From Pseudooceanicola sediminis (lineage in GTDB: Bacteria > Pseudomonadota > Alphaproteobacteria > Rhodobacterales > Rhodobacteraceae), in contig NZ_QWJJ01000024.1 in assembly GCF_003575965.1 (NCBI RefSeq), positions 1-36,684 of the forward strand: 36,684 bases of DNA. Direction: 5' to 3'. Positions within the stretch are counted from its first letter, which is position 1; the number at the start of each line of letters is the position of its first letter. The position numbers and the translations under genes are program-made. The notes beneath the pieces are model-generated. The model was not told the origin of the DNA. It worked only from the letters and a program-made list of their open reading frames with translations, and searched no databases. Positions 2,612 to 29,028 of the stretch are shown here, piece after piece.

Positions 2612-2616
2612 CGGCT

Positions 2617-2668
2617 ATCTCCCGCGACAGGCGCCGGGAGCCACTCTCCCAGCCCTCAACCCGTCACC
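2617..2668 (-). promoter_or_regulatory. Hairpin leader, copy B
   Basis: Minus-strand order: TGACGG (2666-2661), ten bases, hairpin GGGAG-AGTGG-CTCCC (2636-2650), GGCGCC, GTCG, GGGAGA, ATG of the DUF932 gene at 2611. This copy has a fully Watson-Crick 5-bp stem. It is closest to copy C. Confidence 0.65.
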
Positions 2669-2783
2669 GGGAAACCGGCACTCCTCTCACTCTCGGTGGC
2701 CGGCTCCGCCGCGTTAACTTCCGCGTCGATGTCAATGCACTATCGGGAAAACGCAATCGGGTCCAACATGCGGAGGAGCAAGT

Positions 2784-4079
2784 CTATTTGATCTTCTTGA
2801 GTTCCTGGATCTCACGGAGCGCGGCACGTTCAAACCGCCTGATCTGCTGAGTGATCTTTTCGTCATCGCCGAATGCGGAGGCGCTGCGCCGCCCATAGGA
2901 AGAAAAGTTGCGTACGATCCGAACACCTTCGTCGTCACGCACCTTCAGGTGGGTGAAACGGCGATACAGGCGTTTGGTGTGTGCCTTAGTCGATTTTCCA
3001 GATGCGATGTTTCTCTCCGCGATCTTGCGGGTTCGGCGCATCGCCCTTCGCATCTTTCGCCACTGCCGAGCGAGGGAGCTTTCTCGAATGGCTGGCCCCT
3101 CTTCGTGGAGCGAGAAGCCTAGGTATTGTGCTGCTTTTCCCGCTACGACGCCCGTACCCGTGAACTCGGTCCTTTCGGTCTTGTGGGGAGAGATATCCAG
3201 CTTCTCTGCCTTGATGAGATCCATGATTTTGGCTTCGGCTGCTGCGGCGTGAGCAGGGGCGCAGATCACCAAGATGTCGTCCGAATAGCGGCGATACAAA
3301 GCACCGATGCTGTCGCAGAAAGCGTGCGCTGCCATGTCGAAATCAATCATGTACAGGTTCGAAGCTGCTGCGCTGATGGGGGTGCCCTGAGGGATGCCTC
3401 GCCGATGCCCCTTTGCCAGTTCGGGGTTGGGGTGAAACTTGATGCCATTGGCCTTGAGCTCTTCGACACTGGCGATCCGGTCGCGGCTTTTCTCCTTGAG
3501 CCGGGAGGAGAACGTGGCGTTCGCCTTAAGCTCTTCCATATCAACATAGTGGAACGCGGTGATCGCCCGAAACACGCGCATCCAGTGTTCGGGCAGCGAG
3601 GTTACGCCCAGCACTGCCTTTAGGCGGCGTTTCAGGAGCGTGTGGTCAAGGTTGTCGAAGAAGCTGCTGACGTCGAACGCCAGTATCGTGACGGGGGCAT
3701 GGGTCTTGGCAAACGCAAGCACTTCCGCCGAGAAATCGTAGTTACCACGCCCGAGTGCACGATAGGCCAAAACGCTATCGGAGAGGCCCGCGGCGTTATA
3801 ATGGGCGTCCAGCAACTTATTCATCTCGCTGGCGTAGAACGAAAGTATACAGGCGTCCCGGTGCGATGCGTATTTGATCGGGCGGTCCTTCGAAGTGATC
3901 GTCCGCTTCCCTGTCTTCGGGCACTTCTTGTAGCGTTTCTCGGATTTCGTGTAGTGCAGGAGTGGGAGGAAGGAGTGCTTGAGCACGAAGTCCGGGTCCA
4001 TTGCCTTGCCAGCGAACTTCTCGCCAACGGGAAGATCGAAATGGCGGTAGCCTCTAGACTTAAACCAATCGAGCGGCAT
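2784..4079 (-). CDS. drt2: Reverse transcriptase, DRT2-like antiviral family
   Basis: The 431-aa protein is a reverse transcriptase of the bacterial defence (UG/DRT) kind. Visible motifs: R-G-Y-R-H-F-D at residues 9-15; F-D-V-S-S-F-F-D at 135-142 with the first catalytic Asp; R-G-I-P-Q-G-T-P-I-S at 227-236; Y-S-D-D at 265-268 with the catalytic Asp pair. There is no maturase, integrase or retron msr context. The N-terminal RGYxHFD and overall length agree with my memory of DRT2 (UG2), in which the enzyme reverse-transcribes an upstream RNA by rolling circle to make the neo gene that blocks phage growth. AAGGAGG five bases before the ATG supports the start. About 440 bases without a clear gene lie upstream, room for the RNA. 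A retron or group II RT is less likely. The family call is from memory, not alignment. Confidence 0.8.
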   Translation of the reverse strand: MPLDWFKSRGYRHFDLPVGEKFAGKAMDPDFVLKHSFLPLLHYTKSEKRYKKCPKTGKRTITSKDRPIKYASHRDACILSFYASEMNKLLDAHYNAAGLSDSVLAYRALGRGNYDFSAEVLAFAKTHAPVTILAFDVSSFFDNLDHTLLKRRLKAVLGVTSLPEHWMRVFRAITAFHYVDMEELKANATFSSRLKEKSRDRIASVEELKANGIKFHPNPELAKGHRRGIPQGTPISAAASNLYMIDFDMAAHAFCDSIGALYRRYSDDILVICAPAHAAAAEAKIMDLIKAEKLDISPHKTERTEFTGTGVVAGKAAQYLGFSLHEEGPAIRESSLARQWRKMRRAMRRTRKIAERNIASGKSTKAHTKRLYRRFTHLKVRDDEGVRIVRNFSSYGRRSASAFGDDEKITQQIRRFERAALREIQELKKIK

Positions 4080-4080
4080 T

Positions 4081-4329
4081 CAGCCTCCTTGTCGCAGAGT
4101 TCGGAGGACTGGCCCTGACCCTGGGCTCCGGATTGTTAGGCCGGGCGTCCCCCGAACGCACGCCACCTTCTGTCAGCGTATACGTTCAGCGTCTCACTTC
4201 CGAACGCCTCGCAGACACGGGTCTCGAAACGCGAGGTGGTATAATGTAACCGTGGAGGTCCGAGCTATGCTCAGTGTCTCATTCAGTCTGGCTCTGGTCG
4301 CGGCGATGCTGTTCGGCATCGTGCTGCCA
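4081..4329 (-). ncRNA. Candidate DRT2 template RNA
   Basis: In DRT2 loci the template RNA is encoded just upstream of the RT on the same strand and is about 280 nt long. Here a weak promoter (TTGGCC at 4365-4360, 18 bp, TTTATG at 4341-4336) would start an RNA near 4329, ending close to the RT start. ACA occurs at 4247-4245 and again at 4136-4134, exactly 111 nt apart. Bases flanking them can pair: CTCC (4257-4254) with GGAG (4129-4126), and GGTT (4251-4248) with AATC (4134-4131). Inside are two hairpins, CCTCGC/GCGAGG (within 4236-4207, with an inner AGAC/GTCT) and GGCGT/ACGCC (4164-4144). The ends of the RNA are estimates. Confidence 0.6.
4137..4247 (+). other. Deduced neo repeat unit (exists as a gene only in concatemeric cDNA)
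   Basis: This is the strand complementary to the template RNA. If cDNA ending at TGT 4245-4247 continues at the base after TGT 4134-4136, the 111-nt unit repeats in frame. The frame through ATG 4244-4246 then has 37 codons and no stop: it reads M-L-G-R-A-S-P-E and closes with T-R-G-G-I before the next M. GAGG at 4233-4236 lies seven bases before the ATG, and an extended -10 (TGG TATAAT, 4237-4245) overlaps it. In the plasmid itself the ATG is followed directly by TAA (4247-4249), so no gene exists without the junction. The second plus frame is also open, so openness alone is weak evidence in GC-rich DNA. Confidence 0.5.
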
Positions 4330-4519
4330 GGTCACCATAAAGAAGTTGACAAGTTCAACGGCCAAACCCGTGGGCCATTTCCCGCGGGCAATAACGATTT
4401 GGTGAGCGAGTGTCGGCAATTCAAGGTTGCGAAAAACAATTTTGCCAATCAGCGTTGGTGTCAGCAGTTGGAAAACCCGGCAAGCTTCCCCGCCGGGCCC
4501 GAGGGGGAGACCCCGTTCC

Positions 4520-5678: not shown

Positions 5679-6731
5679 TCAGTCTGGGTTGGACGGATCA
5701 ACTGCGTCCAACTCGAAAATCGTTGCGTCGGGTTTTGGTCCCATCACACGCGTTGGCAGATTAGGCGCAGGCAATTGACCTCTGTGGTGCCCCTTCACCA
5801 ACACAACCTTACCGCTGCGATAGCGCCGCTCATGTTCGCTCACCCAATGGCGAACAGGGCCGCTTCGCCCGTCCTGGACCTCACGCTCGAACTCAAGGCG
5901 AGCCTGCCGCTCCTGCATGTGAGCCGCGGCCTGCGGACCAATGCGGATTGTAAGATGGGATTTCTGCGCGCCAAGAATCCAGGACTTCCCGAACTTTCGA
6001 GCGGTCTTTGCATCCTTGGCTGTGAACGTCTCGTTTTCCGTGGGAATGATGCCACCCAAGTCCGGGGAAACCAGCATCGCAAAGAGCGCGTAGGGGATGA
6101 AAAGATCGTAACCTGTTTCAACTTGGTGCACCGTGCGCCGACCGTTGATCATTTCCTTCGTATCACCGCTCCGCACACGAAAATCGACCATGGAACGGCT
6201 CAATTCGACTTCGACGTTGTCGTAGTTCAATTCGCCTGTCGGAGTTCGCTTCACAAGCAAAGCGCAGATTGGGTCGACGACCCGCGAATTCTCGCGGCGA
6301 TGGAACATCGTGATGCGCAAGTGACCCTTGTTTCGATCATCGATGAGATAGCCGCGTAGACCAGTGCCTATGGGTTTGTCGTCATGTCTCGTTACAGGTG
6401 AAGCCCGTTCAAAGCGCGCGACACCCAGCTCTCGATCATCAAATTCGACCCAAACAACGTCGGCGGGGAGCTTTACCTCACCCAGAATGGCCATTGCGGG
6501 AAGACCGGTTTCCGAAGCCTGCTTGGCGACTGCGTCATGAAGCGTATCGGCATAGGCTGCAGCCATATGGTCGAGCAGGTACACTTTCGCCTGCTGCAGG
6601 GCATCGAGCGCATACTCGCGAAAAAGCCTCAGATCCTCGGACGGCGTAAAGTGCCAAACTAAGTCGTCAGCAGGAGCCGATTTACCCGCAAGCGATGAAC
6701 CGTATAAGGAAATCAATGATTTGTAGAGCAT
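5679..6731 (-). CDS. Unknown 350-aa protein
   Basis: I cannot name the family. The protein has no signal peptide or transmembrane segment. A long N-terminal part is followed near the C-terminus by a basic segment with R-R-Y-R-S-G-K-V-V and K-G-H-H-R-G. I have seen a similar tail on unannotated phage and alphaproteobacterial proteins, but no role is known to me. I use the ATG at 6731; an in-frame TTG at 6788 would add 19 basic residues but has no ribosome-binding sequence. The gene stands alone on the minus strand with about 250 bases before it. Confidence 0.6.
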   Translation of the reverse strand: MLYKSLISLYGSSLAGKSAPADDLVWHFTPSEDLRLFREYALDALQQAKVYLLDHMAAAYADTLHDAVAKQASETGLPAMAILGEVKLPADVVWVEFDDRELGVARFERASPVTRHDDKPIGTGLRGYLIDDRNKGHLRITMFHRRENSRVVDPICALLVKRTPTGELNYDNVEVELSRSMVDFRVRSGDTKEMINGRRTVHQVETGYDLFIPYALFAMLVSPDLGGIIPTENETFTAKDAKTARKFGKSWILGAQKSHLTIRIGPQAAAHMQERQARLEFEREVQDGRSGPVRHWVSEHERRYRSGKVVLVKGHHRGQLPAPNLPTRVMGPKPDATIFELDAVDPSNPD

Positions 6732-6985
6732 GCGACGTAACCTGAACCAAATACAACGCAGTTTCCGACGAACCCTGACGATATTCAAGCTGCATTCATT
6801 GCACTACAATTGACCGCTGATGTCTGGGCAAAGTCAGATTGGCTGACGCTCGAGCTTGTTTTCTTAATGCAAAGGCATGTCGACCATCGTCGGCTCATTT
6901 TGCCGGTCGGCCGGAACGGTGGACAGGCGAAAGGCCCGGATCGGAGCCTTGCTCCGAACCCGAGCCGTCTTCGACCCCGTTGGCT

Positions 6986-7150
6986 TCACGCCCACGGGTC
7001 GATCTCACCCACCACCTGAACCTCGTCTCCGTCGATTTCATCAGCGGGGACGGCGCCATAGGTTCCATCACCGGCCTGGAAGACGACGATCGAGACCATG
7101 AGCGTGGCGGCGAGGGAAGCGGCGAAGGCGTGAGCATCTTTGCGGGACAT
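6986..7150 (-). CDS. 54-aa membrane-anchored or exported acidic microprotein
   Basis: The ATG at 7150 has AGGAG eight bases upstream, inside a leader resembling that of ssb (GACAGGAG in both). The protein begins M-S-R-K-D-A-H, has one hydrophobic segment of about 17 residues (A-A-S-L-A-A-T-L-M-V-S-I-V-V-F), and ends in an acidic tail with D-E-I-D-G-D-E-V-Q-V-V-G-E-I-D. This could be a single-pass membrane protein or a secreted peptide. A longer reading from 7327 exists but its extra residues look non-coding. No family is recognised. Confidence 0.55.
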   Translation of the reverse strand: MSRKDAHAFAASLAATLMVSIVVFQAGDGTYGAVPADEIDGDEVQVVGEIDPWA

Positions 7151-7538
7151 CTGTTTGGCTCCTGTCTTGGAGGCGGAGGACCATCCCCCGCGCGACAGGA
7201 CCCCGCAGGCCCGAAGACTGGCTGACATCACCGGGTGCGTTCGGCTCGTCCGAATCCACCCGGCGGCACGGGCTCGCCCGTAGTCCGACCCCTCACGGGT
7301 TGATCTCGAAGACGGGATTCGGGGCAAGGAAGGGAATGGCGAGCGGGGGATTGTGCGACCGCTGACTGGAGCCGGGTGTCCCGCTGATGCTATCGCTGCC
7401 AGCCTCCCGGGCAGGCTCTTGGTAGAAGACCTCGTTCCGTGTTGGAATGGATCCTATGGTGCACCGCGATCTCGCGGGAAAGGGTCGTGATGGGTGAGAG
7501 GCCCGCGCTCTGGCGGGCCCCTTGGGTTCTACATAGGC
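7151..7538. other. Gene-free stretch with a terminator-like hairpin
   Basis: No credible gene on either strand. GGCCCGC (7500-7506) and GCGGGCC (7513-7519) form a 7-bp stem with a six-base loop 20 bases after the unknown gene at 7539-8012. There is no T-run, so it may stop or stabilise that transcript but is not a classic terminator. The rest shows nothing I can name. Confidence 0.4.
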
Positions 7539-8012
7539 TCAGGCGGCAAGTTCCGCATCCCCTGCCCTATCGCCGCCCTCGCTGCCGACGATCTCGAGCC
7601 GCGCGTTGCGATAGCCTTCTCTGGCGATCCAGAGTTCCGCAGCCGTGACAGACTCGGCCAGGTGGAGCAGCTCCATGCAACCGCCGAAATCCAGCAGGAC
7701 ACGCACCTGCCCAGGCTGTGGTTCCTCAGCGACCTTGAAGGTCAAGGCACTGTCAGCAGAATGAGTCCGCATGATCGTCACGAGAATGACCCCGTCCGAA
7801 GAGAAGTTCCCCTCGTGCAGCGTGAACGACGCCGGCGCAGTCCAGGTCGGATAGGGTCGCGGTGGCTCCTTCTTGACAAGACGGCCGACGCCGTTCGAGC
7901 GTTCCCAGGCCGCGAGCTTCTTTGTGAACCGAGCGGGCGGCTTGGGACTGCTGTCGGTATAGCGAATGAGCGCCCCCAGGGGCGCATCATCGAGAATAGT
8001 GGTTGCAGACAT
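7539..8012 (-). CDS. Unknown 157-aa protein
   Basis: I do not recognise the family. The protein is soluble, with a Pro/Lys-rich N-terminal half and a C-terminal half that looks like alternating strands and helices (V-R-V-L-L-D-F-G-G-C-M-E-L-L-H). GAGG lies five to six bases before the ATG at 8012. It follows the large ParB-like gene on the same strand, separated by about 100 AT-rich bases (8013-8111), so it may be in the same transcript or have its own promoter there. Confidence 0.6.
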   Translation of the reverse strand: MSATTILDDAPLGALIRYTDSSPKPPARFTKKLAAWERSNGVGRLVKKEPPRPYPTWTAPASFTLHEGNFSSDGVILVTIMRTHSADSALTFKVAEEPQPGQVRVLLDFGGCMELLHLAESVTAAELWIAREGYRNARLEIVGSEGGDRAGDAELAA

Positions 8013-10449: not shown

Positions 10450-10465
10450 CTTAACAGCTGTTAAG
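10450..10465. repeat. 16-bp palindrome, candidate partition site 2
   Basis: A second exact copy of CTTAACAGCTGTTAAG, 58 bp from the first, centre to centre. It overlaps the repC stop codon (10461-10463). Confidence 0.7.
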
Positions 10466-11672
10466 CTGCAGATCGTCGTCCAATCAATGCCATGACCATC
10501 GGGCCACAGGAAAACTCACCGGCCACAGCTTTGGCAGTCAGAGCTCGCAAGTATCCACCAGGCGATCTGATGTCCTCAAAGCGTTCCAGCATGGCAGAAA
10601 CGACGATCGACGCTTGCTCCGGACCCATGAACCGCTGCGCTTCTTCCCATGCAGATGCACTGATCCCCATGGCTGGTCGCACATGGCATGCCGCATCGAA
10701 AAGCTGGTGCCAATGCCGGATTTCGCCTTGGTAAAAGGTCTTGAGCGAGGGACATGCCGCAATCACCAGGTGCAGCGGGATCTTTGGCAGGTGTCTTGTG
10801 TCCTGTTCATCGACGTCAGCCACGGGCTCATCCCTGTCCACATCTGGCACGCCGGCCGCCGCCCCGCTTTTTTCTAAAGCAGGTTCAAGATCTATAGATT
10901 CTTTATTTGAATTATGATGGTGACGCTCAGATCGAGCATCATTGGTGTTCATTTCTTCTGTTTCAGAACCATCAATGATGTTGCGTGCCTGATCAAGGAG
11001 AGCTTCAAGATCGGCTCGATATGCCGCGAGGTCCTCAATTGAAAGCTTGCGGCGAAGCGCGCGCGCTGTGAGGATAGCCTTGTCACGAAGCTGGTCCCAG
11101 AAGCCTAGGCCTGGCTGCATCTCGTCTCCGAACTCCGCGAGGGCCGCGAGATCACGCCGCATGAGGCTTACAACCTCTCTCAGACGCCTGACGCGCTCCT
11201 CAGCCTCACGTACGGCCTCTGCGGCCCGTGCTATCTCCTCGGACTGGCAGTAGAGCGGGGAAAGATCGAAGCCAAAGGCGACGCGCTCTTCGCCGTGCTT
11301 GCGGACGTAGCGCTTTCCATTGGGGCTATCACGCCGCTGGAGCAAACCAGCCTCGACAAGACGCGCGAGGTGACGACGCATAGTGGAGCAGGGCATACCA
11401 TTCAGGCGCTCACAGATCGCCTTGTTCGAGGGGAAAACTACCATCTCGGCGTTCCCGCCAAGTGCATCGTCTGGAAAGAAGCTGAGGAGACCCTGCAAAA
11501 CAGTCAAATCACGTTCTGACACGCCAAAGGCCGCTTGCGCCTTGGAGAGCTCGCGCAGGAGTTCCCACTTGTTGACGGGTCTGCCCGGAACAGATGCCTC
11601 GGGTCGCTCGATCACGCGCAGATGGGCGTGCGAGATCGGCCGCATAAACGGCGAAATCGGTGTGTACTCCAT
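10461..11672 (-). CDS. repC: RepC replication initiator
   Basis: The 403-aa protein is the RepC initiator of repABC plasmids, by its N-terminal region (P-I-S-H-A-H-L and K-W-E-L-L-R-E-L-S-K-A), a winged-helix domain in the first third, a coiled stretch, and a C-terminal domain ending after S-P-G-G-Y-L-R-A-L. It is the third gene of the operon, 213 bases after repB, and that gap carries the antisense RNA that limits RepC synthesis. The start is ATG 11672; a GTG at 11684 is also possible, and neither has a good Shine-Dalgarno sequence. Its stop codon lies inside a partition-site palindrome. Confidence 0.9.
   Translation of the reverse strand: MEYTPISPFMRPISHAHLRVIERPEASVPGRPVNKWELLRELSKAQAAFGVSERDLTVLQGLLSFFPDDALGGNAEMVVFPSNKAICERLNGMPCSTMRRHLARLVEAGLLQRRDSPNGKRYVRKHGEERVAFGFDLSPLYCQSEEIARAAEAVREAEERVRRLREVVSLMRRDLAALAEFGDEMQPGLGFWDQLRDKAILTARALRRKLSIEDLAAYRADLEALLDQARNIIDGSETEEMNTNDARSERHHHNSNKESIDLEPALEKSGAAAGVPDVDRDEPVADVDEQDTRHLPKIPLHLVIAACPSLKTFYQGEIRHWHQLFDAACHVRPAMGISASAWEEAQRFMGPEQASIVVSAMLERFEDIRSPGGYLRALTAKAVAGEFSCGPMVMALIGRRSAA
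10868..10925. other. AT-rich segment in repC, likely origin of replication
   Basis: In repABC plasmids the origin lies inside repC, in its AT-rich middle. This stretch is the AT-richest part of the gene (TTTTTTCTAAAG, then TATAGATTCTTTATTTGAAT) and stands out against the GC-rich surroundings. The assignment is by family knowledge and composition only. Confidence 0.45.
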
Positions 11673-11722
11673 GAAAACGTTCACGAAGGCAAAATTTCTA
11701 CGGCCCGCGAATCGCTTTGCGC

Positions 11723-11751
11723 TTGCGGGGTAGGGGCCAGAACGCTACATT
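11723..11751 (+). promoter_or_regulatory. Promoter of the antisense RNA
   Basis: TTGCGG (11723-11728), 17 bp, TACATT (11746-11751) on the plus strand, opposite to the rep operon and correctly placed for the counter-transcribed RNA that ends at the terminator near 11848. Confidence 0.65.
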
Positions 11752-11757
11752 CAGAAG

Positions 11758-11848
11758 TGCGAAAACTGAGATTTTGTAGCGGGCTGATCCCGGTGCGAAA
11801 CCTTACAAAGGTCTCGTGAAGCTAGCTTCTCGGGGCCTTTTTCTTTTT
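11758..11848 (+). ncRNA. Counter-transcribed incompatibility RNA of repABC
   Basis: This RNA of about 90 nt runs opposite to the operon in the repB-repC gap. In repABC plasmids such an RNA pairs with the repC leader, represses repC translation and sets copy number. It starts about seven bases after a plausible promoter and ends in a strong terminator: GGTCTCG (11810-11816) pairs with CGGGGCC (11831-11837), the inner GAAG pairs with CTTC, and TTTTT-C-TTTTT follows. A smaller hairpin CGGG/CCCG lies in the middle. Confidence 0.8.
11810..11848 (+). terminator. Terminator of the antisense RNA
   Basis: A two-part stem (7 bp with two G.T pairs, then GAAG-CTAG-CTTC) is followed by two runs of five T. 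In the opposite sense the same bases can form a structure in the repC leader, the usual repABC control arrangement. Confidence 0.85.
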
Positions 11849-11885
11849 GCCTGTATCGTGCCTCCTTCTTGTTGGTTGCTCTTCC

Positions 11886-12815
11886 TCAGTCTCCTGAACG
11901 CTTCCAGCGCTCATGAAGCTCGGTAATCAGCTTTGGGGCATTGCCCTCCAACCAGCTGATAAAATCAGGTTCATCCGTAGTCAGATCGAGCTTAAGCTGC
12001 TTGCCTTGGCGGCCGGTCTTAACCGTCGCAGCTCCGACACCGGGGATCGCCAAAGCAGGCACGCCCTTTCTAGACGGGTTTGCTTTCTTCTCTGGGCTCT
12101 TCGCAGCTGCCAGAACTGCGAGAAACGCACGCTCAGAAACCTCATCGACCGAGCCGGAACTTTCGGACTTGGCTGCATGAGCTACCGCTTGCAGTTGGTC
12201 TCGATCACCGTCGTAGGTACCCAAGGCCTTTTTGAGCTCTTCCCATCTCGGGCGACCAATCCCGGGAGCCGCACCAATTGCCTGGATGAGTTCCTCGCCG
12301 ACCGTCCGAACGACACTCAAGAGTTGTGAAACCCCGGCTTCGTGGAGGTTAAGGACTTCGGCGACACCTCGATTGGTGCGCTCAGCCCCTTCCAAATGGT
12401 CACCGTCCAGAAGCGCCGTCGCAACAAGCGCCCGTTCAATAAAGCTCAGATCACGACGCTCTTGGTTCTCGAGAAGCTGATCTCGAAGCGCTTGATCACC
12501 ATCAACTTCCGTGACGATGGCTCGAACTTTGATACCGAGTTCGCGACATGCTTCTAGGCGCCTGCGGCCATAGATCAGGTTGTAGCGATCGCCTTCCAGT
12601 GGGCGGACCAATACAGGCACACGCTGACCGTTCTTGGAGATAGAGTTCTTCAGGCCCTCAACTTCAATCTGAAGCCTGTCATCCAACCGTCCTTCGGTAA
12701 CAATCTGCGCCGGATCGATCTCAAATACACCACCACGCAGTCGGCGCCCTTCAAGAGCGTCAGGAGCGTTGCGAAGGGTCTGCAGCGGCAGGCCGAGTTT
12801 AGGCTTTCTTGCCAT
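11886..12815 (-). CDS. repB: RepB plasmid partition protein
   Basis: The 309-aa protein is the ParB-family centromere-binding protein of repABC. It has the N-terminal ParB domain (D-P-A-Q-I at about residue 36, then Y-G-R-R-R-L-E-A and the E-N-Q-E-R-R box) and a helix-turn-helix region around N-L-H-E-A-G-V-S-Q-L-L-S-V-V. It should bind the palindromes beyond repC and act with RepA. I use the ATG at 12815 (M-A-R-K-P-K), which overlaps the end of repA by 17 bases. Such overlap is typical and suggests coupled translation. An earlier start at 12854 would add 13 residues. Confidence 0.92.
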   Translation of the reverse strand: MARKPKLGLPLQTLRNAPDALEGRRLRGGVFEIDPAQIVTEGRLDDRLQIEVEGLKNSISKNGQRVPVLVRPLEGDRYNLIYGRRRLEACRELGIKVRAIVTEVDGDQALRDQLLENQERRDLSFIERALVATALLDGDHLEGAERTNRGVAEVLNLHEAGVSQLLSVVRTVGEELIQAIGAAPGIGRPRWEELKKALGTYDGDRDQLQAVAHAAKSESSGSVDEVSERAFLAVLAAAKSPEKKANPSRKGVPALAIPGVGAATVKTGRQGKQLKLDLTTDEPDFISWLEGNAPKLITELHERWKRSGD

Positions 12816-13992
12816 TCCGCCCCCATGTGTTCTGGATGATTTCAGCGATCTCATCGTTCACTGCGTTCATGGATTCGATCGCACGATCAAACGTCTGACG
12901 CGTGAAGTCCTTCTTGTCAGCTTCGTAGAGCGTTTGCTTGGTCAAGCCGGCATCAGAAATTGCGGTCGATTCAACCATGTGATTGGTCAGGACCGACCTC
13001 CCAAACAGCCCGCGAATGAAAGCGATGACTTCGGTTTGTGGCGCGTCGCCGACTTTGTATCGCGTTGGCAAAAAGCGCAGCCAATCGAAGCGCAGATTTG
13101 CGCCTGCATCCCTGATCACTCCCAGGAGATCCGCAGTCATTCGCAGGAATTGGGACATCGACATGAGGTCAAGCATCTGCGGGTGAACCGTCACGAGGAC
13201 ACCCGAGGACGCGGAAAGTGCTGACATCGTCAAGAAACCAAGCTGCGGCGGGCAGTCGATCACAACAACGTCGTAGTTCGCTTCAACACTATCGAGTGCG
13301 TCATGAACTCTCGCGAAGAACGCTTTCGCTCCGCCTCGCTGGATAGCAGCAGGCGTCTCGTGCTCGAACTCCATGAGTTCAAGGTTGCCCGGGATAAGAT
13401 CAAGGCCACGGATGTAGGTCTTGCGGATCACTTCGGCGATCGGAACCGGATCGTCATAGCGAACTGCATCATAGAGGGTTCCGCCCTCCATAAGGTCGAG
13501 TTCCGGCTGGATTCCATGAAGAGCTGAAAGGGATGCTTGAGGGTCGAGATCGATCGCAAGAACCCTGTACCCCTTAAGCGCCAAGCGTTGAGCGAGGTGA
13601 GCAGACGTCGTCGTTTTGCCGGACCCGCCCTTGAAGTTCACCACTGAAACGACTTGAAGCTCGTCACCGTCGCGACGTCCAGGCACGTAAGTTCCAGACT
13701 TCTTTGCATTTCCTTCAAGCGTTTGACGGATTTCCCAGATATCATCGAGCGTATAGCGGCGATGACTTCCAGCTGTCGTCTCGACGTCAACGATCTTTCC
13801 TTCTCGATGAAGCTTACGAAGATAGGTATGATCGACGCCAAGGAGTTCAGCAGCTTCGCCGCTGGTCAAAGTGCGCATCACCTTCTTTGCATCCGGCGGG
13901 AAGTGGGCAGCGCGCTGAGCATGCAGGTTCGACGCGAGAAGTTCCGCGTAGTGCCCGATGGCGATGTCTAGATCCTGCTCTACTTCGCTCAT
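12799..13992 (-). CDS. repA: RepA partition ATPase
   Basis: The 397-aa protein is a ParA-family ATPase. It has a MerR-like DNA-binding segment at about residues 40-95 (S-G-E-A-A-E-L-L-G-V-D-H-T-Y-L-R-K-L-H) and a deviant Walker A motif K-G-G-S-G-K-T-T at 121-128, then D-L-D-P-Q-A-S-L and the V-V-I-D-C-P-P motif. In repABC plasmids RepA drives partition and represses its own operon. It is the first gene of the operon. The ATG at 13992 gives the family's usual length. Confidence 0.93.
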   Translation of the reverse strand: MSEVEQDLDIAIGHYAELLASNLHAQRAAHFPPDAKKVMRTLTSGEAAELLGVDHTYLRKLHREGKIVDVETTAGSHRRYTLDDIWEIRQTLEGNAKKSGTYVPGRRDGDELQVVSVVNFKGGSGKTTTSAHLAQRLALKGYRVLAIDLDPQASLSALHGIQPELDLMEGGTLYDAVRYDDPVPIAEVIRKTYIRGLDLIPGNLELMEFEHETPAAIQRGGAKAFFARVHDALDSVEANYDVVVIDCPPQLGFLTMSALSASSGVLVTVHPQMLDLMSMSQFLRMTADLLGVIRDAGANLRFDWLRFLPTRYKVGDAPQTEVIAFIRGLFGRSVLTNHMVESTAISDAGLTKQTLYEADKKDFTRQTFDRAIESMNAVNDEIAEIIQNTWGRNGKKA

Positions 13993-20806: not shown

Positions 20807-23161
20807 ATGCCGTCCGACACCCATCGTCACGACCACGATCACGCCGAAGATGCCCAGACAAGCGGCGGCAGCTGCTGCGGGGGCGCCGGAACGTGCGGCG
20901 ACATCGTTCCGACGACGCCCGCGCCATCGGGCGGGCGCAGTTTTCAGGTGTCCGGCCTCGATTGCGCCGAGGAGGTAGCAATCCTGAACAAGGTGGTCGG
21001 CCCGAAGATCGGCGGGGCCGAGCATCTCGCGTTCGACGTGATCAATGGGCGGATGACTATTCTCGACAGCGCCAAGAGTTTATCGGACGGCGAAATTGCA
21101 GAACTGGTCGCAAGCACCGGCATGACCGCCAAGCCTTGGGATGCCGAGAACGCGTCGGTCGACCAGGCGGCCCATCTTGCAAGACAGCGGCTGTTTACGG
21201 CGCTCAGTGGAGGCTTCTGGGCCGCAGGATTTCTGTGGCACATCATCGAGACCGGCATGGGCGGGGCGCTCGGCCTCTTCGCGGGTCACGGCGAAGCGCC
21301 GATGCCACTGGTCGAGGCAGGGCTGTTCGCGGTTGCGATCCTGTTCGGTGTCTGGCTCGTGGCACCCAAGGCATGGTCGTCCGCTCGGCGGCTGTCGCCC
21401 GACATGAACCTGCTCATGGTGGTCGCCGTGGCCGGTGCCATCGGGCTTGGCGAATTTTTCGAGGCGGCGACAGTCGCGTTCTTCTTTTCGCTCTCGCTCT
21501 ACCTCGAAAGCTGGAGCGTCGGGCGTGCGAGGAATGCGGTTTCAGCTCTGCTCGACCTCGCGCCGCCGACGGCAAGAGTTCTTCATGATGACGGCTCGGA
21601 AGCGGACGTTCCGGCTTCTGCGGTTGCTATCAACGCACGTTTCATCGTGCGCGGCGGAGACCGCATCCCATTGGATGGTGAGGTTGTCGATGGGGCAGGG
21701 GCCGTCGATCAGGCGCCGATCACCGGAGAGAGTGCGCTGGTCCCAAAGGAACGGGGCGACGAAGTCTATGCCGGTACGATCAACGGCGAAGGCACACTGA
21801 CGGTGCGCGCCACGAAGGCCGCCTCGGACACCGTGTTGGCCAAGATTATCCGCATGGTCGGCGACGCCCATGCCCGCCGCGCGCCGGTGGAGCAGTGGGT
21901 GGCGAAATTCGCCCGCATCTATACGCCTATCGTCATGGCTCTCGCCATTGCAATTGCCCTGCTGCCGCCGCTCATTTTCGGGGGGGCCTGGGATTATTGG
22001 TTCTACAATGCACTCGTGCTGCTGGTGATCGCTTGCCCATGCGCTCTGGTCATCTCGACACCGGTCTCCATCGTCGCTGCACTCACCGCCTCAGCGCGGG
22101 CCGGGGTGCTGATCAAGGGCGGTGCATATGTTGAGGCACCGGGCAAGACCACTGCACTGGCCATGGACAAGACCGGCACGATCACCATGGGCGAGCCCGA
22201 GGTGGCGGCGGTGCATCCGCTGGGCAAAGCATCGGCGCAAGATCTGATGACCCTCGCCGCTGGGCTGGAGGCACGTTCCTCGCATCCCTTGGCGCGCGCC
22301 ATTCTTGCGCGGGCAGAAGCCGACGGCATCAAGGTATCCGCCGCGGAAGATACCCGAACCGTTCCGGGCAGGGGACTTGAAGGACGCACAGACGGCCGGT
22401 CGATCTGGCTGGGGTCGGACCGGTTTGCCGAGGAGAAGGGTTTCGGCGACGCCATTCCGAAGGATTTGCGCGACCGCATCGAAGGGGCTGGCAGCACCCT
22501 TGTTGCCGTGGGCGACGACACCGGTGTCACCGGCATCTTGGAATTGCGCGACCGTATCCGACCGGATGCCAAAGGCATCGTGGCGCAGCTTCACGCGCAG
22601 GGTGTGAAGACCATCGTCATGCTGACCGGTGATAACGAGCGGACAGCGCGCGCTGTTGCAGCCGAGGTCGGCATCGACGAGGTCCGTGCCGAGCTTCTGC
22701 CCGAAGACAAGGTGACTGCCATCGAAGAACTGGTCGAAACGCATGACATGGTGGCCATGATCGGCGACGGGGTCAACGACGCCCCGGCCATGGCGCGCGC
22801 GCATTACGCCATCGCAATGGGTGCCGTTGGTTCGGACGCGGCAATCGAGACGGCGGATATAGCCCTGATGACCGACGATCTCGGCAAGGTGCCTTGGCTG
22901 ATCGGTCATTCGCGCCGGACAATGTCGATCATTCATCAGAACATCGGTATTTCCTTGGCGACCAAGGGCGTTTTCGTTGTCGCTACCGCGTTCGGACTGG
23001 CATCGATGTGGGGCGCGATTGCAGCCGACGTAGGAGTGTCATTGCTGGTGGTGGCCAATGCCCTGCGCCTGCTGAACAGCCAAGAGGCCAAGGCGCCGCC
23101 GTCCGGCGGTGAGCAGGTTGGCCCACAGATGGCAAAGGCCGCGCTTGCCCACGGACATTGA
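20807..23161 (+). CDS. zntA: Zn/Cd/Pb-exporting P1B-type ATPase
   Basis: The 784-aa membrane pump has a His/Cys-rich N-terminus (H-R-H-D-H-D-H and S-C-C-G-G-A-G-T-C), an HMA-like domain at about 45-115, a transmembrane C-P-C site (C410-P-C412), the phosphorylation motif D454-K-T-G-T, an H-P locus (S-S-H-P-L-A) and the hinge G-D-G-V-N-D near 654. CPC with this C-terminal layout points to the divalent-metal (ZntA/CadA) group rather than copper. The HMA domain has D-C-A-E-E where most have C-x-x-C. AGAGG precedes the ATG. The MerR-type promoter upstream matches the regulator at 31377. The exact metal among Zn, Cd and Pb cannot be read from sequence. Confidence 0.92.
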   Translation: MPSDTHRHDHDHAEDAQTSGGSCCGGAGTCGDIVPTTPAPSGGRSFQVSGLDCAEEVAILNKVVGPKIGGAEHLAFDVINGRMTILDSAKSLSDGEIAELVASTGMTAKPWDAENASVDQAAHLARQRLFTALSGGFWAAGFLWHIIETGMGGALGLFAGHGEAPMPLVEAGLFAVAILFGVWLVAPKAWSSARRLSPDMNLLMVVAVAGAIGLGEFFEAATVAFFFSLSLYLESWSVGRARNAVSALLDLAPPTARVLHDDGSEADVPASAVAINARFIVRGGDRIPLDGEVVDGAGAVDQAPITGESALVPKERGDEVYAGTINGEGTLTVRATKAASDTVLAKIIRMVGDAHARRAPVEQWVAKFARIYTPIVMALAIAIALLPPLIFGGAWDYWFYNALVLLVIACPCALVISTPVSIVAALTASARAGVLIKGGAYVEAPGKTTALAMDKTGTITMGEPEVAAVHPLGKASAQDLMTLAAGLEARSSHPLARAILARAEADGIKVSAAEDTRTVPGRGLEGRTDGRSIWLGSDRFAEEKGFGDAIPKDLRDRIEGAGSTLVAVGDDTGVTGILELRDRIRPDAKGIVAQLHAQGVKTIVMLTGDNERTARAVAAEVGIDEVRAELLPEDKVTAIEELVETHDMVAMIGDGVNDAPAMARAHYAIAMGAVGSDAAIETADIALMTDDLGKVPWLIGHSRRTMSIIHQNIGISLATKGVFVVATAFGLASMWGAIAADVGVSLLVVANALRLLNSQEAKAPPSGGEQVGPQMAKAALAHGH

Positions 23162-23224
23162 TCACGCAGCATTTGCAAGGTAACGTAATGTCCATAACAG
23201 ACCTCACGAAAGAGGCATCGAGCA

Positions 23225-23737
23225 GTGAAAACCATCCGATTTCCCCGCCGCGCCGTCCTGTTGGGCGGGCTGGTAGCGTTTCTGTCCGGGTGTGCCAGCA
23301 AGTTCCGCAGCTATGACGGACCCGAAGTCACCCGTGTTCGGCTTTACAAGGGACAGCGCTTGCTTGTTCTCGACGGAGCCGATCGCGTCTTGCAAACCTA
23401 TCCGGTCGGGCTGGGTTTCGCTCCTGAGGGTCACAAACAATTCGAGGGGGATGGCCGGACTCCGGAAGGAGTTTACACAATCGACAGGCGAAACCCCAAC
23501 AGCACCTACCATCTTTCGATTGGCATCTCTTATCCGAACGAGGCCGACATCGCCTTTGCCGAAGCGCAGGGCCTTTCCCCCGGCGGCGACATCTTCATCC
23601 ATGGTGGCCCACGCCCCGGCATCGACCCGACAAATGTCCGCGACTGGACAGCTGGCTGCATCGCGGTCACGGATCGGGAGATCGAGGACATCTATGCAAT
23701 GGTGAAGGACGGGACACCTATCCACATCTTTGCATGA
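23225..23737 (+). CDS. Lipoprotein L,D-transpeptidase (YkuD family), copy 2
   Basis: The 170-aa protein has a lipoprotein leader with lipobox L-S-G-C23, and a YkuD domain with H126-G-G-P and D-W-T-A-G-C145-I-A-V-T. It would act on peptidoglycan from the membrane face. The start is GTG 23225, with GAGG about nine bases upstream. It follows the ATPase by 63 bases on the same strand with no terminator between, so the two are probably co-transcribed from the MerR-type promoter. It converges with lnt. Confidence 0.85.
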   Translation: MKTIRFPRRAVLLGGLVAFLSGCASKFRSYDGPEVTRVRLYKGQRLLVLDGADRVLQTYPVGLGFAPEGHKQFEGDGRTPEGVYTIDRRNPNSTYHLSIGISYPNEADIAFAEAQGLSPGGDIFIHGGPRPGIDPTNVRDWTAGCIAVTDREIEDIYAMVKDGTPIHIFA

Positions 23738-23746
23738 CGGTCTTTC

Positions 23747-25294
23747 TCATGCGGCGGTAGTGAGCCGTCGCATTGGCGCCATTGCCCAGCTCCACGAAGC
23801 CAAGATGAGCGCCAACAGCATCCAGTCCCCGAAGCTCGCGTAGAGTGTCGGCGGTCGCGCGGAGGGCAGGCTAGCGTCGATGATGCCCGTTTCGCCGGTA
23901 TCGAGCCGCGCAACGATCTCTCCGCTCGCGTCGATGACCGCAGAGATGCCCGTATTCGCGGCTCGGATGACTGGAAGGCCTTCCTCTACGGCGCGCATAC
24001 GTGCGGAAGCCAGATGCTGCTCGGGTCCGATGCTGGTGCCAAACCAGGCATCGTTTGTCGCGTTGAAAATCCAGTCCGGCCGGAACAGGTCGTCGACCAC
24101 ATGCCCTGGGAAGATGATCTCATAGCAGATCGCCACGGCGACCAGCGGCACACCCGGAAGCGCAAGCGTTCTCGGGCCCGGTCCGGGCGTAAAATCGCCC
24201 AGACCCGCCGTGAGCCGCTCGATGGGCAACCAGCCGCGGAATGGCACATATTCGCCGAAGGGCACGAGATGGTGTTTCGCGTATCCGGTCAGGATCTCGC
24301 CGGTCTCGTCAAATGCCTGGACCGTGTTGAAATATCGGGTGCCATCCTCGCTCGGTACACGGTCCGGCACACCGGTAAGCAGCACTCTGCCGTCTGGTAG
24401 CGCTGCGGCAATGCGGGCCCGTGCCTCCGTATCCTCATCGAGGAAACCCGGAAAGGCGGTTTCCGGCCAGAGAAGCACGTCGAAATCGCCGGGCCGGGTT
24501 GAAAGCTCAAGATAGCGCGCGAAGGTCGCCTCGCGGTTCTCGGGAGCCCATTTCTCCTCTTGTGGAATGTTGCCCTGGACGATGCGCAGGTCGACACCGG
24601 GTGGCTGTTGTGCATCCGACTGGAGGCGCAGCGTGCCGACAGCCCACATCGTCGCGATTCCGGCCAGCGCCATGAGCGAGATGGTCAATCGTTGCCGCCC
24701 GGACGCCATAGCAGCCGCGCCAGGGAGTACCGCGACGAACACGGTGAGAAAGCTTAGCCCATAGCTTCCGACCCAGGCGGCGGTCTGGCGAAGGGCGGCG
24801 TAGTCTACAAGTGCGTAACCGGCCAGGTTCCAGGGAAACCCTGTCAGAACGTGACCACGCAACCACTCGGCCACGGTCCAGGAGGTCGCGAACAGGAGGC
24901 AGGCCAAGAGACTGCCCATGGCTCCGCGCCGCGCGATTTCGGCAAAAAGCGCAGCGGCAATGGCTGGGAAAATCGCGAGACCTGCGGACAATCCCGCGAC
25001 CGCCGGAATCGCCATCGTCCCAAACCGCTCGGCCTCGACGTAGAAACTTTCCGCGATCCACCAAATCCCGAAACCGAACTGGCCGAGACCAAACGCCCAG
25101 CCGACGAGGAAAGCGCGCCCGAAGGAGAGATCGCGAAGCCCGACAAACAACGCGGAATAGGCAACGGGAACGAGCAGGAGAATCGAAAGAGGCGGGAAAG
25201 TCAGAACGGTCATCGCCCCGGCGGCGAAACCAAGCGTCATCCGCGAAAGCAAACGGTGGCGCAGAGCGATGCGGTTCAGAATTTCCGGCTTCAC
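23747..25294 (-). CDS. lnt: Apolipoprotein N-acyltransferase
   Basis: The 515-aa protein has several N-terminal membrane segments followed by a nitrilase-like domain. The expected catalytic Glu (W-P-E-T-A-F-P-G-F), Lys (A-K-H-H-L-V-P-F-G-E-Y) and Cys (A-I-C-Y-E-I-I-F-P) are all present. Lnt adds the third acyl chain to lipoproteins. The start is GTG 25294, whose last two bases begin the lspA stop (GTGA overlap); ATG 25324 would add ten residues. It is the last gene of the long minus-strand operon. A plasmid copy of this core gene next to lspA is unusual and suggests a specialised lipoprotein pathway. Confidence 0.93.
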   Translation of the reverse strand: MKPEILNRIALRHRLLSRMTLGFAAGAMTVLTFPPLSILLLVPVAYSALFVGLRDLSFGRAFLVGWAFGLGQFGFGIWWIAESFYVEAERFGTMAIPAVAGLSAGLAIFPAIAAALFAEIARRGAMGSLLACLLFATSWTVAEWLRGHVLTGFPWNLAGYALVDYAALRQTAAWVGSYGLSFLTVFVAVLPGAAAMASGRQRLTISLMALAGIATMWAVGTLRLQSDAQQPPGVDLRIVQGNIPQEEKWAPENREATFARYLELSTRPGDFDVLLWPETAFPGFLDEDTEARARIAAALPDGRVLLTGVPDRVPSEDGTRYFNTVQAFDETGEILTGYAKHHLVPFGEYVPFRGWLPIERLTAGLGDFTPGPGPRTLALPGVPLVAVAICYEIIFPGHVVDDLFRPDWIFNATNDAWFGTSIGPEQHLASARMRAVEEGLPVIRAANTGISAVIDASGEIVARLDTGETGIIDASLPSARPPTLYASFGDWMLLALILASWSWAMAPMRRLTTAA

Positions 25295-25773
25295 GACTTG
25301 ATCGAACGCCGCGCGCTGATCCATGGCGCGGCGAGCAAGAGCCCCACGCCACTGACGACAAATACATCGGCCAAGTTGAAGGCAGGCCAATGTGTTGTGC
25401 CAATGTAGAAATCGAGAAAGTCTGTTACAGCCCGATACCGCACACGATCGATGACATTGCCCAGGGCTCCGCCAATGATCGCACCGTAGGCAAGCGTTTC
25501 CACCGCATTGTCGGCGCGAAACAGCATAACCCCCAGCCAAACACAGATGGCAAGAGCGAAAGCGATGAGGCTCCACCACGGCGCGCCGCCCAACATCCCG
25601 AAAGTCACGCCGTCATTACGATAAAAGACGAGGTTGAATCCCGGAAACACGGGAATTCCGGCGCTTAAAGTGACGGCATTCGCAACGACAATGGCTTTGG
25701 TGATCTGATCGATCGCGAACGCAGCAAGTGCTGCGAAGACGCCGATCATCGGAGATACCTTGTTTAGTGACAT
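25291..25773 (-). CDS. lspA: Lipoprotein signal peptidase II
   Basis: The 160-aa protein has four membrane segments and both catalytic Asp motifs of LspA: G-N-V-I-D-R-V and F-N-L-A-D-V-F. It removes the signal peptide of lipoproteins in the inner membrane. I use the ATG at 25773 (M-S-L-N-K-V), preceded by GAGG. It follows the ZIP gene with almost no gap and overlaps lnt. Two lipoproteins encoded nearby (20340 and 23225) are possible substrates. Confidence 0.93.
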   Translation of the reverse strand: MSLNKVSPMIGVFAALAAFAIDQITKAIVVANAVTLSAGIPVFPGFNLVFYRNDGVTFGMLGGAPWWSLIAFALAICVWLGVMLFRADNAVETLAYGAIIGGALGNVIDRVRYRAVTDFLDFYIGTTHWPAFNLADVFVVSGVGLLLAAPWISARRSIKS

Positions 25774-25777
25774 TGCC

Positions 25778-26560
25778 TCATCCCAACCAGACATCAAGGA
25801 ACAGCATCAGAACGAGCCCGACTGCGAGACCGAGCGTCGCCCTGTTCTGATGGCCGCTGCGATGGGTTTCGGGGATGATTTCGTGGCTAATGACGTAGAG
25901 CATTGCGCCCGCGGCAAAGGCCAGACCCCATGGAAGCAGCGGTTCCGACAGTGTGATGATGCCGGCCCCGAGCAAACCGCCAATCGGCTCGATCATGCCC
26001 GTCAGCGCCGCGATGCCCCAGGCGCGCAGCTTCGGATATCCCTCGCCCAGCAGAGATACAGCGACGGCCAATCCTTCGGGCGCATTCTGAAGCCCGATGC
26101 CGATGGCGAGCGGCAGACCGCCCTCCATACCTCCGGATCCGAAGCCGACCCCAACCGCAAGGCCTTCGGGGAAGTTGTGGATCGTGATTGCGATGATGAA
26201 CAGCCAGACCCGCCGCAAAGACGCCGCTTCGGGCCCTTCGCGTCCCGTCTTGAAGTGCTCGTGCGGCAGCTTTTCGTTCATCAGGGCGACAGCCCCCATG
26301 CCCAGAAGAATCGAAACGCATACGATGGCCGCAGGCATCGCGCCGTTTTCGAACATCGGCTCCGCCGCATCCAATGCCGGGATGATCAGCGAAAAGAAAG
26401 AAGCGGCGAGCATCACACCGGCAGCGAAGCCGAGCGACAGATCGCGTGTGGCCCGAGACGGGATGCGCCCGAACAGCACGGGAACTGCTCCGACTGCTGT
26501 GAGCGATCCAGCGGCAAGACTTCCGAGAAAGCCGAGCATTATCGGAGACAGATTTTCCAT
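25778..26560 (-). CDS. ZIP-family divalent metal transporter
   Basis: The 260-aa protein has eight or so membrane segments and the ZIP metal-path motifs H-N-F-P-E-G-L-A-V-G, N-A-P-E-G-L-A and E-P-I-G-G, plus H-E-I-I-P-E near the C-terminus. This pattern fits the GufA branch. ZIP proteins carry zinc or other divalent metals into the cytoplasm. The short loop with N-E-K-L-P-H-E-H may bind metal. It is an import protein in an island otherwise devoted to export, perhaps for balance. It lies between DUF411 copy 2 and lspA in one operon. Confidence 0.9.
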   Translation of the reverse strand: MENLSPIMLGFLGSLAAGSLTAVGAVPVLFGRIPSRATRDLSLGFAAGVMLAASFFSLIIPALDAAEPMFENGAMPAAIVCVSILLGMGAVALMNEKLPHEHFKTGREGPEAASLRRVWLFIIAITIHNFPEGLAVGVGFGSGGMEGGLPLAIGIGLQNAPEGLAVAVSLLGEGYPKLRAWGIAALTGMIEPIGGLLGAGIITLSEPLLPWGLAFAAGAMLYVISHEIIPETHRSGHQNRATLGLAVGLVLMLFLDVWLG

Positions 26561-26572
26561 GGGCGGGCCAGA

Positions 26573-27028
26573 TTATCCTTCGGCGTAGCTCGAAAAGACT
26601 TCCGTCGACCCGTCCTTGCGGATGAGGAAGACATCATAGGCCTCGCGGTCGTCTTCTGGCCCCATGCCGGGCGAGCCATAGGGCATCCCCGGAACAGCGA
26701 GGCCGACGGCGTCCGGGCGCTCCTCGAGAAGGCGGCGGATGTCAGCGGCCGGTACATGGCCCTCGATCACGTAGCCGTCAATGAGCGCGGTGTGGCAGGA
26801 GACCATGCGCTGCGGCACGCCGTTGTCTAGCTTGAAGCGCACGAGAAGCCCGCCGAACATGTCCTGGCCGGTCTGCACAAACCCGTTCTCTTCGAGATGT
26901 TTCATCCACGAGAGGCAGCAGCCGCATCCGTTGGTCTTGCGGACGTCGATCGCCGTTGCCTCTGCGAGGGCCTGGGCCGCTGGGAACAGGGCGAGCGTGA
27001 TGGCAAGAACTTGTGTCATGCGTTTCAT
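26573..27028 (-). CDS. Periplasmic DUF411 metal-binding protein, copy 2
   Basis: The 151-aa protein has a standard leader ending A-L-A-E and the DUF411 signature C35-G-C37-C38, then V-S-C-H-T-A-L-I-D-G-Y and P-G-M-P-Y-G-S-P-G-M. It is clearly different in sequence from copy 1 at 18327, so the two were not made by a recent duplication. It follows the M23 gene by three bases and precedes the ZIP gene. Confidence 0.87.
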   Translation of the reverse strand: MKRMTQVLAITLALFPAAQALAEATAIDVRKTNGCGCCLSWMKHLEENGFVQTGQDMFGGLLVRFKLDNGVPQRMVSCHTALIDGYVIEGHVPAADIRRLLEERPDAVGLAVPGMPYGSPGMGPEDDREAYDVFLIRKDGSTEVFSSYAEG

Positions 27029-27031
27029 GGG

Positions 27032-28405: not shown

Positions 28406-29028
28406 GTCGCCCCCTCCATTTCTTCTTCCAGCGCGCGGCGGATCTTCGGCACCGCGAATTCTTTGGGCTCGTGATAGTCGATCATGGTGACGAATCGCCC
28501 AGAGGCTGCGAACAGGAAGACGCTCGCGGTGTGGTTCATCGTGTAATCGCCGCTCTCCGCCGGTACTCGCTCGTAGGTGGCGCGGAAGCCGTCCGCGACG
28601 CGCGCTATCTGCTCTTCCGGTCCCGTCCAGCCGCGGATCGCCGGATGGAAGTAGCCGACATATTCGGCCATCGTTTCGACAGTGTCGCGCTCGGGATCGA
28701 CCGTGATGAAAACCACGTTCATCTCGTCGGCCTCGTCTCCCAGATCGTCGAGCCATCCCGAAATGTCAGAAAGCGTGGTCGGGCAGACATCGGGACAGTA
28801 GGTGAAGCCGAAGAACGCCATCGTCGGGCGACCGATCAGGGTTTCCGGCCCGACCGCGTTGCCCTCATGATCCGTCAGACGGAAATCCATCTCGGTCAGG
28901 GCCACAGGCCGCTGCCCGACAGGTTCGGGTCCACCGGGTCCATCGACCTGCCACCAACCGACGAAGAGCATCAGGGCGACCGCCCCGACACCAGCCGCGC
29001 CGTACCCCAGGACCGCCCGTCGCCGCAT
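28402..29028 (-). CDS. SCO1/SenC-family copper/thiol protein, copy 1
   Basis: The 208-aa protein has an N-terminal anchor (A-V-L-G-Y-G-A-A-G-V-G-A-V-A-L-M-L-F) and a thioredoxin-like SCO domain with C78-P-D-V-C82 and the distal His in Y-T-M-N-H-T. These three residues bind copper in SCO proteins, which help build the CuA centre of cytochrome oxidase or act in thiol redox control. Its ATG overlaps the PCuAC stop by one base (TGATG). A second, different SCO protein starts the operon. Confidence 0.9.
   Translation of the reverse strand: MRRRAVLGYGAAGVGAVALMLFVGWWQVDGPGGPEPVGQRPVALTEMDFRLTDHEGNAVGPETLIGRPTMAFFGFTYCPDVCPTTLSDISGWLDDLGDEADEMNVVFITVDPERDTVETMAEYVGYFHPAIRGWTGPEEQIARVADGFRATYERVPAESGDYTMNHTASVFLFAASGRFVTMIDYHEPKEFAVPKIRRALEEEMEGAT

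Follow-up and report, generated by a model that had tools for sequence, protein, structure and literature searches.

A DRT2-like reverse transcriptase locus of Pseudooceanicola sediminis with a putative 129-nt template, a probable CGTT jump word and a predicted neo gene

Can a reverse transcriptase (RT) locus of the alphaproteobacterium Pseudooceanicola sediminis give rise to a gene that is absent as such from its own DNA and, if so, which stretch of RNA would serve as the template? The question arises from a sequence of 36,684 nucleotides (contig NZ_QWJJ01000024.1 of assembly GCF_003575965.1; hereafter the window), for which the original prediction proposed a DRT2-like RT with an upstream noncoding RNA (ncRNA). 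The RT is encoded on the minus strand at 2784-4079, comprises 431 amino acids and carries a YSDD active site. The Drt2 models of PADLOC rank first and second of 65 for this protein (434.4 and 323.2 bits; best E-value 1.7e-130), the runner-up family being RT_UG17 with 78.5 bits. The NCBIfam model NF041746 (Drt2) scores 385.9 bits and misses its curated naming cut-off of 390 by 4 bits, a shortfall that we read as divergence of the clade and not as membership of a different family; the second NCBIfam match, Drt3a, reaches 67.9 bits. The three top solved chains have E-values of 8e-60 to 2e-57 and the next chain 2e-4. Two of the three are named Drt2, and the third (9lje), named RNA-dependent DNA polymerase, is near-identical in sequence. 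Residues 4-421 align with chain 9c0i (E 9e-60), and residues 4-422 at most are covered over the three best chains. The entry 9C0I is the model deposited for KpDRT2 of Klebsiella pneumoniae (Wilkinson 2024, PMC12039810), the system with which we compare the locus throughout (Tang 2024, PMC11100668; Wilkinson 2024, PMC12039810; structures 9C0I and 9C0J). The two RTs share 31% identity and align nearly end to end.

By structure conservation, a structured ncRNA lies directly upstream of the RT gene. The candidate transcript (4094-4392, minus strand) has predicted ends, the 5' one approximate, with dense conservation from 4389. A consensus fold of 11 sequences contains 78 pairs, of which 20 have changed on both sides; none of 500 shuffles reaches 20, and sliding the partners leaves 2 to 6 such pairs, with the reservation that the structure, of nested pairs only, was derived from the same alignment on which it was scored, which favours it. 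At the 5' end stands a handle hairpin (4366-4389, minus strand) of 8 pairs, 5 of which are changed on both sides, with 100% of cells paired in the 11 sequences. A possible basal stem (4247-4364, minus strand), in which 4364-4355 would pair with 4256-4247 and close the template, has 9 pairs, 97% of cells paired and 1 pair changed on both sides; when the window sequence is folded by itself (z -2.14), neither the minimum-energy nor the centroid structure contains this stem. The 3' part (4094-4163, minus strand) matches the full Rfam model RT-13 (RF03017) with 79.1 bits against a gathering score of 69.1, and the Rfam search of the window returned only RT-13 and no RT-12 scaffold. The RT-13 model spans 67 positions; in our reading it represents the 3' end of a roughly 300-nt DRT2 ncRNA. 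The PADLOC matches, the solved chains and this conserved structure support a DRT2-like RT with an upstream ncRNA.

RT-13 was detected in 5 of the 394 genomes of the family sample, namely the 5 whose RT is 87-100% identical; a further 6 genomes, which carry distant DRT2 RTs (30-37%), are without it. The class samples contain it in 3 of 376 genomes, once under the gathering score, and those 3 are the genomes that, among 385, hold an RT at least 54% identical. Among 18 loci searched, three carry RT-13 (L027, L028 and L032) and five carry RT-12 (RF03016; L029, L031, L043, L044 and L048, with RTs 49-63% identical to KpDRT2); the other 10 have neither, and L033 gives an RT-13 match of 55.7 bits, under the gathering score. 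RT-12 marks the 3' part of KpDRT2-like ncRNAs, an association observed here and not a published criterion.

Which part of this RNA would be copied? The original prediction chose the cDNA of 4247-4137 (minus strand), a unit of 111 nt generated by jumping between ACA triplets at 4247-4245 and 4136-4134. Both triplets are present 111 nt apart, ACA is the KpDRT2 word, and the proposed 37-codon frame is open over the junction; a second frame is open as well, as was conceded at the time. Yet the second ACA (4134-4136, minus strand) sits in the variable loop of a small hairpin within the RT-13 scaffold, outside the template proposed below, and is not conserved. Following an alignment of 14 upstream regions, 19 close loci (the window's own included; 10 distinct 330-nt sequences) were measured, and the 111-nt unit fails this homologue comparison because 9 of them lack the second ACA, against 10 that have it; counted by distinct upstream sequence, it is present in 4 and absent in 6. 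Chance also suffices to produce such pairs: when the 400-nt upstream region was dinucleotide-shuffled 3000 times, 2565 of the shuffles contained one or more ACA pairs separated by 60-200 nt, at a distance that is a multiple of three and with a stop-free frame. The real region holds 15 ACA pairs 60-200 nt apart, three of them at multiples of three and all three stop-free. We regard a template bounded by this ACA pair as very unlikely, and the start codon and peptide predicted with it are likewise unsupported. Nor would the length be new, since 111 and 129 nt are already printed for KpDRT2 relatives (Wilkinson 2024, PMC12039810). Another ACA (4173-4171) was considered as the 3' end and set aside when the elements TGTCAA and ATTATA pointed to a unit further upstream.

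In the KpDRT2 template the -35 and -10 boxes are not in promoter order and come to lie 17 bp apart only across the junction of two repeats; the -10 box lies 12 nt into the repeat, counted from its 5' end (Wilkinson 2024, PMC12039810). Here the RNA strand carries TGTCAA, complementary to TTGACA, at 4351-4346 and ATTATA, complementary to TATAAT, at 4245-4240. Applying the KpDRT2 geometry to these elements yields a unit of 129 nt, and the word CGTT repeats exactly at that distance: the 5' copy stands at 4357-4360 and its direct repeat at 4228-4231 (both minus strand). The template (4228-4356, minus strand), which promoter geometry, word, frame and conservation delimit, would end with the 3' CGTT, and begins 109 nt upstream of the unit first proposed. 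In both 17-nt template end segments ACA is absent, CGTT being found there instead. Joined in silico, with 4228 linked to 4356 in a cDNA junction that we infer from the sequence, the repeats read TTGACA-AGTTCAACGCGAGGTGG-TATAAT, followed by GGAGG, ATG and a stop-free frame of 43 codons, in which the repeat peptide contains ...MLSVSFSLALVAAMLFGIVLPGHHKEVDKFNARWYNVTVEVRA... On the plus strand, the -35 box lies at 4346-4351 and the -10 box at 4240-4245, 12 nt from the 5' end of the repeat; only once concatenated are they 17 bp apart, and they then match a sigma-70 promoter at 12 of 12 bases. The likely ribosome-binding site GGAGG (4254-4258) precedes the likely neo start codon (ATG, 4267-4269) by 8 nt, and the frame is the only open one of the three, in a repeat whose length is divisible by three.

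Several elements named in the original prediction acquire another meaning in this arrangement. The TATAAT whose last bases form an ATG, followed by TAA in the genome, is present, but this ATG, proposed as start codon, overlaps what reads better as the -10 box, and the GAGG assigned to it as ribosome-binding site falls inside the spacer between the -35 and -10 boxes of the concatemer promoter. The broader idea of an endless open reading frame, absent as such from the plasmid and arising only by concatenation of cDNA through template jumping, is supported. A strict test (12/12 promoter bases, 17-bp spacing, a word of at least 4 nt, a length that is a multiple of three and an open frame) was passed by 1 of 20,000 shuffles; with a 3-nt word none of 20,000 passed, and a loose version (2 mismatches, 3-nt word) was passed by 49 of 4000.

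The 129-nt unit, CGTT and an open frame are kept in 21 of the 23 loci that have an RT at least 50% identical together with upstream sequence: the 19 close loci (RT 87-100%), two of which have TTGACG in place of TTGACA, and plasmids of Neorhizobium and Rhizobium. L015, whose contig begins inside the RT, was excluded from these upstream counts; L038 and L039 duplicate other loci in the set, and some of L017-L020 share upstream sequence with loci L002-L013 and perhaps come from the same genomes. The DRT2 loci of the Rhizobium beringeri and Neorhizobium plasmids (annotated as drt2, hypothetical protein) likewise combine a 129-nt unit, CGTT, a homologous Neo and RT-13, but their RTs are only 53-54% identical, their -10 boxes are weaker and their Neo shares 20 of 43 residues. 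The Neorhizobium locus (L028) fails the strict test through one -10 mismatch and passes when one mismatch is allowed, which 0 of 4000 shuffles do; the other Rhizobiaceae locus (L027) has a poor -10 box, TATTGT. An alphaproteobacterial locus with an RT 54% identical (L032) has a unit of 120 nt whose ends carry the six bases CGTTGA and whose frame is open, with a poor -10 box (4 of 6 bases, 19-bp spacer); at 17-bp spacing the scan picked another unit there, which 114 of 2000 shuffles equalled. On the minus strand upstream of the RT of L033 (genome G446) lies a 66-nt unit with TGT ends and a 22-residue repeat but no evident start codon or ribosome-binding site, equalled by 16 of 2000 shuffles; tentatively, this may be a real template, which would then be far shorter than the printed unit lengths considered here. 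No additional RT-13 clade members turned up in scans of viral sequences.

The two Rhizobiaceae units allow the protein-coding character of the frame to be assessed. Each differs from the window at 43-44 of 129 nt (33% nucleotide divergence), with changes at codon positions 1/2/3 of 20/8/15 for L028 and 18/11/15 for L027, position 2 being lowest. In the core (codons 13-38), dN/dS over four deep, non-independent pairs is 0.38-0.65 in frame, and 0.80-1.15 and 1.56-3.38 in the other two frames. For the unit as a whole, the neo frame gives 0.66-0.98, frame 1 gives 0.65-0.88 and frame 2 gives 1.36-2.69, so that dN/dS separates the frames only in the core; close pairs (3-7 differences) show no separation. 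When the same changes were placed randomly, about half of 20,000 runs stayed stop-free, and openness of the frame alone therefore says little. A hydrophobic stretch as strong as that observed was found in 172 of 9893 and 429 of 10,419 simulated stop-free repeats. These comparisons bear on a reading in which the locus consists only of an RT and a structured ncRNA, the promoter, word and frame being coincidence or relics and no neo being made. That 14 of 31 scanned relatives lack a unit better than shuffles often give speaks for it, but the single success among 20,000 shuffles and the recurrence of the 129-nt unit at 33% nucleotide divergence, with the hydrophobic pattern kept, make it barely credible.

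As for the genomic setting, the window resembles the repC plasmids of Rhodobacterales and contains RepC, RepB-like and ParA/RepA-like genes at 10461-13992. DRT2 sits between a DUF932-like gene (a weak Pfam match) and ssb (window 2612-4519); at this position, two of four related plasmids encode a hypothetical protein, one a SMEK-domain protein and one a metallophosphoesterase, ssb being unannotated in the plasmid with the SMEK-domain protein. This slot is a possible defence hotspot. The ssb and DUF932 neighbours are found at 8 of 15 named loci and missing at 7 (among the 15, L015 has little upstream sequence). At loci without these neighbours, dense conservation sets in with the handle hairpin, immediately preceded by patches such as TTGAAT, so that the ncRNA and the RT seem to move as a unit. 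Elsewhere in the window, a second variable stretch (5679-8012, between ssb and a ParB-like gene) holds two open reading frames without a Pfam match, its counterpart in relatives encoding an HNH endonuclease and a nucleotidyltransferase, or a TrlF-type ATPase; genes for a P-type ATPase, an apolipoprotein N-acyltransferase and an M23 peptidase at 20807-28756 are perhaps metal-related cargo.

On the relationship of the RT, the conserved fold of the RNA, the repeated word, the geometry of the promoter and the frame, all observed here, and on the conservation of these features, we consider it probable that the locus is a DRT2-like antiphage system of an RT-13 clade, in which a 129-nt template bounded by CGTT yields neo by concatenation. 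RNA binding, the jump, second-strand synthesis, toxicity and defence are proposed here by analogy with KpDRT2. The ncRNA (about 4392-4094, minus strand) would consist of the 5' handle hairpin, a loosely held template of 129 nt and a rigid RT-13 scaffold at the 3' end that would hold the RT. The RT may copy the template from 4228 to 4356; the cDNA, ending in the complement of CGTT, would be released at the 5' end and pair again with the 3' CGTT, which would permit the next round. Second-strand synthesis would then place TTGACA 17 bp from the TATAAT of the next repeat at each junction, and transcription from this junction promoter would read GGAGG, ATG and the endless 43-codon frame. The resulting hydrophobic repeat protein may stop growth of the infected cell, as suggested by the Neo toxicity and defence described for DRT2 (PMC11100668; PMC12039810; PMC12596737; PMC12632851).

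The proposed system shares its layout with KpDRT2: an ncRNA directly upstream of the RT gene with a 5' handle hairpin, a template and a structured 3' region, a TTGACA-N17-TATAAT promoter that exists only across the junction with its -10 box 12 nt into the repeat, and, after the promoter, a ribosome-binding site, a start codon and a single stop-free frame for a predicted hydrophobic repeat protein. It differs in its word (CGTT against ACA), its unit length (129 against 120 nt), its Neo sequence and its hosts, which here are Rhodobacterales and other Alphaproteobacteria. The 3' scaffold is RT-13, whereas RT-12 was found in the KpDRT2-like loci covered here, five relatives of the Klebsiella locus with RTs 49-63% identical to KpDRT2.

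If the word can change, does its identity still guide the jump? The same 129-nt template and neo could arise with a jump set by RNA structure and protein, the handle and the 3' scaffold stopping the RT and the identity of CGTT playing no guiding part. The conservation of the 5' CGTT could indeed have another cause, as this copy may also serve the basal stem, which would be enough to preserve it. Among other DRT2 loci, a control scan recovered a unit of 117 nt with ACA in six loci (5/5 viral contigs; RTs 58-63% identical to KpDRT2). In the scan of 31 loci, 15 reach scores that at most 7 of 2000 shuffles attain, and L033 and L027 stand at 16 and 17; the remaining 14 do not stand out from shuffles, three yielding no unit (L021, L025 and L074) and 11, among them L032 and L042, ranging from 71 to 1093 of 2000, and automatic scans with relaxed promoters yield chance hits. 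Promoter, frame and word fit in scanned loci with TCGT (138 nt), GGT (129 nt), TATTA (147 nt) and GAAG (132 nt). In L051, the seven-base direct word AGTATTA delimits a 150-nt unit whose frame is open and whose junction promoter is perfect, a score reached by 0 of 2000 shuffles. Two KpDRT2-like loci depart from the ACA control pattern. In L029, upstream of drt2 on Photobacterium plasmid pPHDD1 (RT 53%), the word is AGAT with a 111-nt unit, the 3' ACA position reads ATA and AGAT matches in that register; L043 (RT 49%) has CAA and 132 nt. The 75-nt unit of L036 lies far upstream and is probably spurious; it was included in the 31-locus scan and the first permutation test described below and dropped in the reduced tests. 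L026 (genome G251) has a DRT2 match containing TAA, and 110 of 2000 shuffles equal its unit; it is perhaps a decaying copy.

In an end-match test, units were picked by promoter and frame alone and their 17-nt end segments compared in register. Of 16 loci tried, 15 gave such a unit (none was obtained for L043); that of L052 measures 138 nt, against 147 nt for its word-based unit. Shared end runs average 3.4 bases within a locus and 2.0 for mismatched loci (n=210). The sum of own runs over the 15 loci was reached by 0 of 20,000 permutations, and by 5 of 20,000 without L036, by 36 of 20,000 without L036 and L051, and by 377 of 20,000 without L036, L051 and the RT-12/RT-13 loci L001, L028 and L031. 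This excess of own-locus over mismatched words, seen in the full set and in the reduced sets (0, 5, 36 and 377 of 20,000), argues against a jump for which the word is indifferent, as does the loss of defence in KpDRT2 mutants that break the ACA homology (Tang 2024, PMC11100668). The fact that 5 of the 15 promoter-only units share at most 2 nt, and 3 share only 3 nt, points the other way, and single three-base words are unproven as signals on such matches. We judge a jump set by structure and protein to be rather improbable, and retain CGTT as the probable guide of the jump. Since the two ends of a unit share longer words within a locus than between mismatched loci, ACA may belong to a set of words that differ by clade. 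We lean towards the view that ACA is not universal in DRT2 and that each clade may have a direct word of its own (CGTT here, ACA in the Klebsiella clade, AGAT in Photobacterium, TCGT, AGTATTA and TATTA in others), in units of perhaps 66 to 150 nt; repeat synthesis would then depend on agreement between the two ends and not on any particular sequence, in a manner resembling telomerase.

The DRT2 system itself is known, and for the CGTT jump word and this Neo we found no earlier account in the main texts consulted. Among the titles surveyed, none concerns a jump word other than ACA or treats RT-12 or RT-13 as DRT2 RNA, and the papers searched for these families make no mention of RF03016, RF03017, 'RT-12 RNA' or 'RT-13 RNA'. 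Neo annotation has been described as harder in divergent DRT2 clades, where other mechanisms may act (Tang 2024, PMC11100668); if clade-specific words are true, they would explain this difficulty. Here one such divergent clade seems to have retained the entire mechanism, the jump word being all that differs. Should this be confirmed, DRT2 would be an RNA-templated gene assembler with a variable jump signal, neo genes would become predictable beyond the Klebsiella clade, and the two Rfam families RT-12 and RT-13 would gain a function.
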